A stretch of DNA of 64,000 bases from Galdieria sulphuraria (taxonomy: Eukaryota > Rhodophyta > Bangiophyceae > Galdieriales > Galdieriaceae): NCBI RefSeq assembly GCF_000341285.1, contig NW_005178430.1:62001-126000 (forward strand). The letters are read 5' to 3'. How positions within the stretch are numbered: position 1 is the first letter of the stretch; the number at the start of each line of letters is the position of its first letter. This document shows positions 20,875-35,029 of the stretch, one piece after another. The position numbers were made by a program, and so were the translations under genes. The notes under the pieces were generated by a model. The model was not told where the DNA came from. It saw only the letters and a list, made by a program, of their open reading frames with translations, and made no database searches.

Positions 20875-23800
20875 AAGAGTATTTTTCCAAATATTTAAGT
20901 CTCATCAACAAATGTTTTCTAAGATCAGGAGGATTGCTGTTCGTGCCCATTTCCTTTAAACGCGTAATATAATAGCGTTTCATCAATGCAATCGCTGAAT
21001 GCCTATTGCGAAACGCAGGATGAATAGCTTCTTTTTCCATATATAACAATCCTAAGACCTCAACTTAAAAAATACTCAAAATGATATTAACAAATAATAC
21101 AAACCTGCTTGTTCCATAAGACCGGCATCCACCAAGATGCCCAGAATATTATCCAAAATTTCTTCCTTTTCCTGCAGTAAACTAGGCACCAGAACTGCAA
21201 ATAGCCAAGAACGACCAACACAAATCAACCTATGAGAAGTATCCTCCAAGACCCACTTTTTAACTAAAGGCAATATAGAAAGATCAACGGGCTCCTGAGG
21301 TGCCAATCTCTCCAACTGTGATACATAATATTTGCAAAGCGATGGATAACCACTAACAACGCCCAAAACGGATGCCAACAAAGGTCTCTTCTCAAAAAGA
21401 TTGGCAAGCATTCTTTCAATATGCTGTTGTTCCAAACCCATCTTTGCAAAGTTTCCTAAATACTGTGTAATGGAAATGATCAAGGAGGACCCCTCTGCAT
21501 TGTCTGGATCCTGACAAAGTTGAATCAATTTCTCCAACCATACGAAAACAACTTGACGAAAATGACTTTGCTCTTTGGTAATAAAATTGCCTACATGATC
21601 GAGAGTTATTATAAAAGCATTCAATATACGATAATCATGTATAGTTTGACATAAAGGAAACAATTCCTCCATAATAGCATTTGCTGCATCGACTTCATTT
21701 TCCACAATATTTCGGTCTAAATTGGAAAGATGCTGCAGCAAACTAACAGAACTACTATCATTCTCTTGTGAAGATAACATCTCCGTCATTTCATTCATTA
21801 GTTTCCACCACTTCCACTGTTTCGAATCGGTTTCCTTATTCTCCAAATCATGCAGTTGTTCCAACTGAATTGCCAACTCCATTAACTCCAAAATGAGACT
21901 ATTAAAATGCACCCATTCTGATTCTATGACTGTTTGACGCAAATTTTGAACCCAAGAGCGAACTCTTTCTAAACATTTTTCCAACGTTTGTTTGTAAAGC
22001 AAAGTATTTTGTTCTAATGCTACGTCTTCCTCTTCACTAGGCAACAAAGATTGTTCCCATGCGGTTGAGGGACTGGAAGACATAATAGGATCTTGATCAT
22101 TTTGCTGTCCTTGTTGCATCAAAGCTTTTGATAATATGGATAAAAGATGTTTACATCTTCCTATCTGCCAAGGAGTCCATCCCTTATGTTGCTCCGCATG
22201 TTCTACGGACATCATCAAATCATTCAGCAATTCAACGACTGCTGAGCTAAAAACTTCCTTAAACAACTCCTCCGGTGTAACTCCATCCGAACTTAACCAT
22301 TCGCTATCCAGACATTTCATTCCACGATAAACGCTATCGACCGAAAGTTGTATTTGACTGGTTGTCTTTAACAACTCTACAAAAACTCTCTTTGAGAGAG
22401 AATAATCCATATCTTCCCTATCCAATTGCTCAAATAAATATTCTGCTAGGTCCGTTCGTTCTAACCATAGCCATTCTGATATTCTTGCAATTGTCTCCAG
22501 TGTCGAACGTTCATTTTGAAGCTGTTTCCAATGTTGATAATATTGACTGTTTTGATCCATAGTTGCCACTTCTGTTTCAGAAATACTGTGAAACGCACAC
22601 ATCACGATATCCAAGCGTACCGAAATACCTGGCTTTACCTTTAAACTTCGTAATCCAACGCGTATAAATGGAACCAAATCCTGCAACTCGCACGTTTGCA
22701 ACCATTCTACCTTTTCGTACAGTTCTTCCTCCAATGCTATCAACGGAGATTCTGAATGTTCGCATATAAACTGTAATCTAAAACGAATCCACATAACTCT
22801 TATCCAAGACGAAGAAGGTGTGACATCCAAAGTTGCATGTAGTTGATTTGCTAAGCCACACAATTCGTCAAGCAACTTTGACTCTTCATCTCTTGAAATA
22901 TTATAATCCAAACCTTGCATGAACAATAACCACTCCTCCTGACAAGCTTCTTCATGCAATGCTATCAACTTCTTAAAGTTGAATTTTCTCTTGTAATGTA
23001 GCGCAAACTTGTCAAAGAAATCTTTCAAGGCATCCAATTCCAAGTTCCTCTTTAAACACCAATTCTCTTTGGAACTAAATCCTGCATGCAAAAATAACAT
23101 GGTGCCTATCTTAAACAACATTTGCAAGGCACCATAGTCATCTCCCGAAACTTGCTCCAAAAATGATTCAAAACGTTGCTCCAATTCCTGTCCATCTTCT
23201 TGACGTACGAGTATATCCTTATAATTCTCCACAAAACTAAAAATCGATTTCTCCAGAGACTTGTCAGGTTTCGTGCAATATCTTTTGATGGCAGCTCTTA
23301 ACAATTCTGTACGACAGCAACATTCGGAAACTCCAAATTTGATGGCACGAGAAACCACCTGTTGTGCTTCATCTAACGAAGTTGACTCACAAAGCTTGAG
23401 AATGGCAGTCTTTCCTGGTTGTTTCGATGAAGAATCAAGTTCATTCTCAAAATTCGACTCGTTAGCCTCTCCTGAAGAATCAAAAGTTGCTTTCCATACT
23501 TGATAAGAATCCCATTCTTCGACAAATTCACTCCATAAGTTCCATGCTGTTTGCTGTTCCTCACAATAACTCATTACATCTGCAAACCTCAAATGACACC
23601 AATCATCTATACAATAATGTTCCAATTGACTTTGGAAAGAAACATCTTGCTTAACAAGACATAAATAACGATAACCATCAGCAAATGCAATCAAGCCTTT
23701 TCCAGCTTTTAGCGGAGACTTTATAGAAGCATCATGCATTTGATCAATTATTGCATTCCAAGTTTCATCACAAGTCGAAGAAGATATTTTTGACAGTATA

Positions 23801-33324: not shown

Positions 33325-33400
33325 AAGACAACCCGTTGTCAGACCTATACTAGAATCAATGATTCTTTTTGGTATTAAGTCGTCATAAGAGCGAAATTGG
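33325..33400 (-). promoter_or_regulatory. Candidate SECIS element, type II, in the selenoprotein H 3-prime UTR
   Basis: Read on the minus strand, 5-prime AUGAC (positions 33386-33382) and 3-prime UGAC (33341-33338) can form the tandem G-A quartet. Above it, GACUUAAUAC pairs with GUAUAGGUC as nine base pairs with one bulged A. Then comes an A-rich internal bulge (CAAAAA, positions 33371-33366) holding the required AA, and a five-pair ministem GAAUC/GAUUC closed by a three-base loop. The quartet-to-AA distance of 11-12 nt fits the SECIS rule. Helix I below the quartet is weak (UU/AA plus a few wobble pairs), and a competing hairpin GACAAC-GG-GUUGUC overlaps the 3-prime side. Located 38 bases past the stop codon. 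Confidence 0.75.
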
Positions 33401-33423: not shown

Positions 33424-33852
33424 TTACTTGTTTAATGCTTCAATAATAGTCTCGACCTCAGGAAACTTGAGTTTACGAGGTGGACCTTTGGACTTGCCAT
33501 CCCAGATAAGAGTTTCCGTCTTGTCCTTTACCAAATAGACGTTGAACGTGCCTTTACCTGTTCGAGGTTTCCCATAAGGTTGAATGGAAACTGTCAAGGA
33601 GGGCTTTTGTTCTTTCAATGCAGCCTCTAACGACTTTGCTTGTCTTTTGTACGTTCCTAAAGGGGTTGAAAGTTACGTGACATCACAAGGAATCCAATTA
33701 TGGTTACCTCAGCTAGTACAGTGCTCAATGATAATACCATTTTCTAAAGCTTCAACATTTTTATCACTATTGAAACTTTTTGGTGTATCTTCTTCCTGAG
33801 TTTTCTTGGCAATCACCTTCTTCTGTACGCCGCGAGCTTTCTTAGGAGCCAT
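33424..33852 (-). CDS. SELENOH: Selenoprotein H (TGA read as selenocysteine)
   Basis: Nuclear Rdx-family thioredoxin-like redox protein. Exon 1 33708-33852, intron of 51 nt, exon 2 33424-33656; 125 residues including Sec48, encoded by TGA at 33709-33711. The N-terminal ~40 residues are Lys-rich and of AT-hook type (MAPKKARGVQKKVIAKK). The redox motif reads IEHCTSU, exactly where human selenoprotein H has IEHCTSU; it is followed by TYKRQAKSLEAALKEQ, a VSIQPYGKPRTGKGTFNVYL strand and the family hallmark KGPPRKLKFPE. The frame stays open on both sides of the TGA and the C-terminal part alone would lack the active site. No other donor removes the TGA without destroying the motif. A SECIS-like fold lies in the 3-prime UTR. 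Confidence 0.85.
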
Positions 33853-33911: not shown

Positions 33912-35029
33912 ATGGAGCTTAGTTTTGTGACGAGCCCTTTTAAGTTAAGCAGACACTTGAGTCGAACGATTTATGGACGACACAGAAAGTGCAGGAAGTA
34001 TTGTGTTGTCGTTGCGAGTTGTAGAAAACGTCGGCAGGAAAACGTTGCCGGGAATATTTATGTGGACACTAGTTGCATCGACTGTGATACGTAAGAAACA
34101 CTAAATTGTCTGATAGTTGGACTCTCAACTTGAAAAGTTGTCGTTGGTTGGCTCCTAATATCTTTTCAAGGAAGGATGGTCAAAGCTATGTGCATAAACA
34201 ACCCGAGTCAACTCAAGAAGAGGAAGCAGCTTTTAAAGCTTTGGTGTCCTGTCCTACTGGAAGCATAAGACTCGAAAGGCCTTGTAAACTTGTGAAGCAA
34301 ACACAAGATTCTTTTCCTTATCCAGTTCATGCAGATTTACCCAACATTTTCTATATGGGATTTGCCTCTGCAAAGTCCTTTGGTGCCCATTCATATCTTT
34401 GGCTGAGTTCTGCAGACTCTCCAACTTTTTCTTTTCCCAATTCTATTTTGGTAGACTCTCCAAGGTTCTTTACACCGTTGGCCAAAAATGTCCAAAATCG
34501 TATTGCTCCAGGAAACTGTGTTGACTGGATGTTCCTTACTCACCGAGACGATGTTGCCGATCATGAAAAGTGGTCTTCTTACTTGAAAGCACGTAGAATA
34601 ATTCATTATGCAGATGCTGTTGGTTCTCTTCAGTCAGTAGAATGGATTCTGGAGGGTGATGGTCCTTGGTATTTATCGGAGGATCTTAAACTAGTCCATG
34701 TTCCTGGACACACAAGAGGGTCAACTGTATTAATAGATAAACGAAATGGAGTTGCTTTTACTGGAGATCATTTAGCGTTTGATATGGAGATTGGTGAACT
34801 TTGTGCTTTTCCTGAAGTATGTTGGTATAGTTGGAAAGAACAAAGGTCAAGTGTAGAGAAACTAATGGATGAACCGTTTGAGTGGATTCTTCCAGGTCAT
34901 GGCAGGTAAGCTTTGATAATTTTCTTTAGATTTTGTATTTCATATTTGGCATATTTCAGGCCTTTTCACTTTCACAATGAGAAGGAGCGTAAAGAATTAT
35001 TAGGAAGAATTGCCAAGGGAGGAGTTTAG
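33912..35029 (+). CDS. Ferredoxin-domain plus metallo-beta-lactamase-fold hydrolase
   Basis: Cyanobacterial/plant-type fusion of a single 4Fe-4S ferredoxin-like domain and an MBL-fold hydrolase. Exons 33912-34090, 34138-34905, 34960-35029; 338 residues. The first ~45 residues are Arg-rich and look like a plastid transit peptide. The cluster motif is CIDCDTCRWLAP plus a later ALVSCPTGSI; the usual C-x2-C-x2-C and distant C-P are all present. In the hydrolase part, FLTHRDDVADHEKW gives the THxxDxxxH-like metal site (with Arg where the second His is usual), then VPGHTRGS, TGDHLAFD and ILPGHGRPFHF give further metal ligands. Substrate unknown. Its ATG is 59 bases from the selenoprotein H ATG, divergent. 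Confidence 0.88.

Follow-up and report, generated by a model that had tools for sequence, protein, structure and literature searches.

Does the hot-spring red alga Galdieria sulphuraria read an in-frame TGA as selenocysteine (Sec)? The question arises from a minus-strand frame in the window, the stretch of 64,000 nucleotides analyzed here, which runs from ATG 33852 through MAPKKARGVQKKV...NGIIIEHCTS to a TGA at 33711-33709 and then on to a terminal TAA at 33424. The initial annotation assigned this frame to selenoprotein H, and we consider it very likely that the gene (hereafter SelH) does encode a eukaryotic selenoprotein H of the thioredoxin-like Rdx/SelWTH family, with its in-frame UGA read as Sec.

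The TGA had been described as the only interruption between the ATG and the terminal TAA. This holds after splicing, since joining 33708 to 33656 across a 51-nt intron gives a 378-nt frame of 125 residues in which the TGA is the sole internal stop; in the unspliced frame it does not hold, a second stop, TAA 33675-33673, being present inside that intron. The IEHCTS-TGA and KGPPRKLKFPE motifs, as well as the TGA itself, lie exactly where they had been placed. Exon 1 ends with base 33708, which opens the Gly codon that follows the TGA, and the intron starts one nucleotide after the Sec codon. The coordinates of these and of the other features discussed below are collected in the Table. On the plus strand of the window, a frame at 34106-34909, divergent from SelH, encodes a 4Fe-4S ferredoxin domain together with a segment of the metallo-beta-lactamase fold; the two genes may share a promoter region.

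Table. Features of SelH (positions in the window) and of the other loci discussed (positions in each locus or contig).
Feature	Location	Strand	Details
SelH exon 1	33708..33852	minus	ATG at 33852; basic N-terminus MAPKKARGVQKKVIAKK
SelH redox box, TGT ACT AGC TGA = C-T-S-U (CxxU)	33709..33720	minus	TGA, predicted Sec codon, 33711-33709
SelH 51-nt GT-AG intron	33657..33707	minus	donor GAG/GTAACC, acceptor TTTAG
SelH exon 2	33424..33656	minus	ends in TAA; KGPPRKLKFPE encoded at 33489-33457
SelH candidate SECIS	33338..33386	minus	begins 37 nt past the stop
Alternative 81-nt intron of public model Gasu2_17890 (P0001)	33657..33737	minus	donor ATG/GTATTA at 33737, acceptor unchanged
SPS2	L016 (G000:C19:149790-153590)	minus	TGA 2274-2272; SECIS-like hairpin starts at 1159
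GPX	L030 (G000:C61:17811-20948)		TGA 1573-1575; SECIS-like hairpin starts at 2013
PSTK candidate	L014:1393-2442 (G000:C40)	minus	single 349-aa frame

SELENOH carries a CXXU box, and its animal forms have Sec there (PMC13088273). When the SelH protein is read with Cys at the TGA, it scores 40.6 bits against the Rdx family of Pfam (PF10262, cut-off 22.6) and 47.5 bits against the NCBIfam profile CXXU_selWTH (TIGR02174, cut-off 34.2), and no Pfam family besides Rdx is matched up to E = 10. The TGA, codon 48, occupies the U of the CxxU box, and the proposal that this is the right family, with the TGA at the redox position, is thereby borne out. Animal SelH has IEHCTSU at the position of this TGA, and the KGPPRKLKFPE C-terminus distinguishes SelH from its relatives. 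Eight relatives were found at E <= 0.001 among 5.8 billion proteins: two are Galdieria proteins with a species name, three are fragments lacking one, two come from cods and one from a lizard. KGPPRKLKFP is invariant in all nine aligned sequences (SelH and its eight relatives, two fish and one lizard among them), and none of the eight relatives carries a clear Sec or Cys at the position of the SelH TGA, their models lacking the stretch, being garbled there or starting downstream of it. A six-frame search of the whole genome with PF10262 gave no match and missed SelH itself, split as it is by the intron and the TGA, so that this search cannot exclude further SelW, SelT or SelH genes.

Reading a UGA as Sec requires a dedicated machinery, which the initial annotation had expected this alga to possess, staking its reading on tRNA-Sec and eEFSec in particular. 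Both were found when the whole genome was searched (12.05 Mb in 102 contigs, with a G+C content of 38% in the 128 kb sampled), and SPS2, SecS and SBP2 are equally clear, PSTK being probable. The tRNA-Sec reaches 67.9 bits, where the gathering score is 47, and carries the anticodon TCA (UCA), while eight other matches to the same model all fall under the cut-off. SecS is represented by five matches inside 1.4 kb of contig C1, the best at 2.3e-33, two of which contain stops that we take for introns; a sixth, weaker match is located on C35. The eEFSec gene reaches 85.5 bits with PF21208 and has 5izk, a Sec-specific elongation factor, as its top PDB match (394.6 bits), and the only PDB match of the SBP2 gene at E <= 0.001 is SBP2 itself (7zjw_B, 110.9 bits). 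The weakest link of the machinery is a 349-aa frame that, judged by its sequence, is probably PSTK: its scores of 61.4 bits with TIGR03574 and 48.8 bits with TIGR03575 are both far under the curated cut-offs, and its top PDB matches are L-seryl-tRNA(Sec) kinases, at 37.3 and 35.7 bits.

Furthermore, two other genes of this genome present a TGA at a place where Sec is known to occur. In SPS2 the surrounding residues are SRLKG-TGA-GCKIPQ, and in the alignment with human selenide, water dikinase 1 (3fd5) the TGA falls on the Thr of LKGTGCK, a position occupied by Sec in SEPHS2. In GPX they are VVLVTNVASL-TGA-ALRNKNY; with Cys at the TGA the product reaches 131.3 bits with GSHPx, and the alignment with the plant enzyme glutathione peroxidase 5 (2p5q) puts the TGA on the Cys of NVASKCG, the following residue being Ala where the aligned protein has Gly. 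The genome-wide GSHPx search detected one locus only (two exon matches). By this logic, and as far as sequence can tell, the genome would have at least three selenoprotein genes, SelH, SPS2 and GPX. Other families were also considered. MsrA was rejected as a selenoprotein, its first exon reading Cys (GLGCFWG), and a search of the genome for Sep15/SelM gave no match. Thioredoxin/glutathione reductase gave ten matches, two of which (L033 and L036) seem to be parts of a single gene; the best locus, L033, was rejected, its end having no GCUG motif.

A Sec codon would also call for a SECIS element in the 3′ UTR. Past the stop of SelH lies a hairpin with an ATGA quartet, a 9-bp helix with one bulged A, a CAAAAA apical stretch, a GAATC/GATTC mini-stem and a TGA 3′ quartet adjoining the helix. 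SECIS-like hairpins begin shortly past the stop in all three TGA genes, at 37 nt in SelH, 28 nt in SPS2 and 21 nt in GPX, and on the spliced mRNA the distance from the UGA to the SECIS would be 274 nt in SelH and 390 nt in GPX. The scanner pattern consisted of ATGA, a helix, an apical AA and a 3′ GA. An earlier version missed the GPX hairpin, and the distance allowed for the apical AA was then widened from 8-12 to 8-14; the final one left the base ahead of the 3′ GA free and took the SelH value as its energy limit. It also lets the 3′ GA stand off the helix, and its best solutions for SPS2 and GPX end at a GA further on; for these two genes a GGA adjoining the helix was spotted by eye and used for the folding energies. 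In total, the scanner gave 22 hits in 302,222 strand-bases, the three hairpins of the TGA genes included. None of 88 control frame ends (taken from mechanically called frames of 150 codons or more, some perhaps non-genic) had a hairpin starting within 60 nt, a count that is supportive but no clean test, since the limits were partly set post hoc and a 3′ GA away from the helix was accepted.

The folding energy is mildly unusual for the SelH hairpin (z -2.0, with 7 of 200 shuffles as good) and not unusual for that of GPX (z -0.8, 33 of 200); the SPS2 hairpin has a z of -2.3 (6 of 200). The Rfam model SECIS_1 (RF00031) found nothing around SelH at E <= 5 and none of the three hairpins in the whole genome at E <= 10; its single match elsewhere, on C76 (17.5 bits, E 8.4), has no frame of at least 100 aa around it and was taken for chance. 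An alignment of two of the SECIS-like hairpins failed to follow their structure. Another SECIS-like hairpin of the window, at 23141 on the minus strand (-15.5 kcal/mol), is located within a 2086-codon frame that has no Pfam match, and was likewise taken for chance.

Taken as a selenoprotein gene, SelH would work as follows, its splicing, Sec insertion, redox function and cell location being predictions made from the DNA. The pre-mRNA would be spliced at 33707/33657; SBP2, bound to the 3′ UTR hairpin (33386-33338), would recruit eEFSec with tRNA-Sec; the tRNA-Sec carried by eEFSec would read the UGA as selenocysteine; and this residue would complete the CxxU redox box.

The main alternative is that real splicing uses the donor at 33737, removing the TGA and leaving a protein of 115 residues with no redox box, the Sec form being absent or minor. 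This donor drops IIIEHCTSU and one Gly in frame, ten residues in all, the intron keeps GT-AG at both ends, and the result is exactly the public G. sulphuraria model Gasu2_17890, identical in 115 of 115 residues. The initial annotation had anticipated that standard gene models would lose the Sec site, and this one does omit the ten residues around it; it is not truncated, as had been foreseen, but reaches 115 aa through the other donor. The same join is carried by the counterpart of this model in G. partita, GpartN1_g6754.t1 (P0002, with the UniRef name Selenoprotein H), which again omits the Sec stretch. Moreover, the stretch around the TGA is absent from all seven named or labelled Galdieria models compared for the three genes, as would also be expected if it were truly spliced out. 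These are P0001 and P0002 for SelH (from the eight matches), P0009, P0010 and P0013 for SPS (from the best 120 of 5350) and P0129 and P0133 for GPX (from the best 120 of 457), P0013 and P0133 being assigned to G. phlegrea by their label, Galph1/GphlegSOOS. Eight close fragments without species (P0003-P0005, P0011, P0012 and P0130-P0132) start downstream of the TGA stretch.

Nevertheless, the codons removed by the 33737 donor spell the diagnostic IEHCTSU, Pfam gives no match at E <= 0.01 for the 115-aa product, and the SECIS-like hairpin would be useless under such splicing. The donor at 33707 also scored above that at 33737 in all seven settings of self-trained donor models, by 1.0 to 5.2 bits where chance sites were few (four settings). 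One setting was noisy (91 training sites against 59 in the control) and six used cleaner sets (60 against 25, 41 against 4, 22 against 1); the 33707 donor is itself merely average, outscoring 15 to 18 of 41 chosen donors, and 11 of 22. The corresponding omissions in the SPS2 and GPX models delete conserved active-site stretches. When a 57-nt stretch is left out of GPX, the translation agrees with the public G. sulphuraria protein (P0129) in 143 of 143 residues. The full-length identities of SelH and GPX to proteins of this species point to a G. sulphuraria strain as the source of the genome. In the public SPS of this species (P0010), a 51-nt join reproduces the first 27 residues, which end in QSVGCKIPQ, and the model then omits another piece; it differs from the genome SPS2 by Ile/Val in the common part. 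Each of the three Sec codons stands in a stretch delimited by GT and AG whose length preserves the frame (51 nt in SPS2, 57 nt in GPX and, through the choice of donor, an additional 30 nt in SelH). More simply, these introns would be artefacts of gene finders steering around the TGA, and we regard real splicing at 33737, with a Sec form absent or minor, as very unlikely. It is also conceivable, though very unlikely, that Galdieria splices its selenoprotein mRNAs in two ways, giving a Sec form and, when selenium is short, a Sec-less form that would escape decay but have no active site.

Reading the TGA as Sec would equally be mistaken if it were a sequencing error for TGC or TGT, or the mark of a decaying gene that it has killed. 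A single base separates TGA from a Cys codon, but the remaining SelH frame is intact, the genome has the Sec machinery, and the codon found at the Sec sites of three unrelated genes is TGA, never TAA or TAG. Furthermore, the models of other Galdieria omit the same stretches, which would be hard to explain if Cys codons stood there, an argument drawn from models and not from DNA. Altogether, an error or a decaying gene appears highly improbable. That the UGA is decoded as some other amino acid, or acts as an ordinary stop through which some ribosomes leak, has a practically negligible probability: DNA alone cannot separate readthrough from Sec insertion, but the TGA stands at a known Sec site in a genome endowed with Sec machinery, and a general reassignment of TGA is contradicted by GPX and SPS2, whose terminal stops are TGA.

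How does a Sec-containing SelH fit with what has been described for red algae? According to a survey of Archaeplastida, some red algae possess a complete Sec machinery, and the number of selenoproteins in G. sulphuraria is one (in the discussion) or a few (in the results), unnamed in the text (PMC6627142, 2019). SelH could be the selenoprotein credited there to this species; against the count of one given in that discussion, three genes are proposed here, SelH, SPS2 and GPX. Another work reports no selenoproteins in Cyanidioschyzon merolae and Chondrus, its main text not naming Galdieria (PMC7539508), and the main texts of two recent papers on Cyanidiophyceae (PMC13353863, PMC13200283) contain neither "selenium" nor "seleno-"; the first of them describes genetic manipulation in haploid G. 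partita. Among the matches listed for the literature on Galdieria and red-algal selenoproteins, in which few subscription journals figure, no title or abstract opening describes a Galdieria SelH. What the analysis adds is the identity of SelH, the further genes SPS2 and GPX, the candidate SECIS elements and the omission common to the public models.

With these results an acidophilic red alga would have a defined set of selenoproteins encoded by at least three genes, one of them the sole GPX locus found, which would weaken the view that acid life nearly removed selenoproteins here. They also point to a repeated annotation error, models from three Galdieria species omitting the active-site stretch.

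A further comparison is with C. merolae, a related acidophilic red alga in which, as reported in PMC2375036 (2007), tRNA-Sec, SBP2, EFsec, SecS and SPS2 exist but no selenoprotein was found, and which according to the results of PMC6627142 has no PSTK, the discussion of that survey being worded less clearly. As far as these sources describe it, C. merolae would keep the machinery without selenoproteins, whereas the Galdieria machinery has clear clients, and the old puzzle of a machinery without clients becomes testable. With respect to the family itself, SelH differs from known SELENOH in its red-algal host, in the 51-nt intron one nucleotide past the Sec codon and in a SECIS unmatched by Rfam SECIS_1, but it shares with SELENOH the CxxU box, the basic N-terminus, the KGPPRKLKFPE C-terminus and the combination of a UGA with a candidate SECIS in the 3′ UTR.
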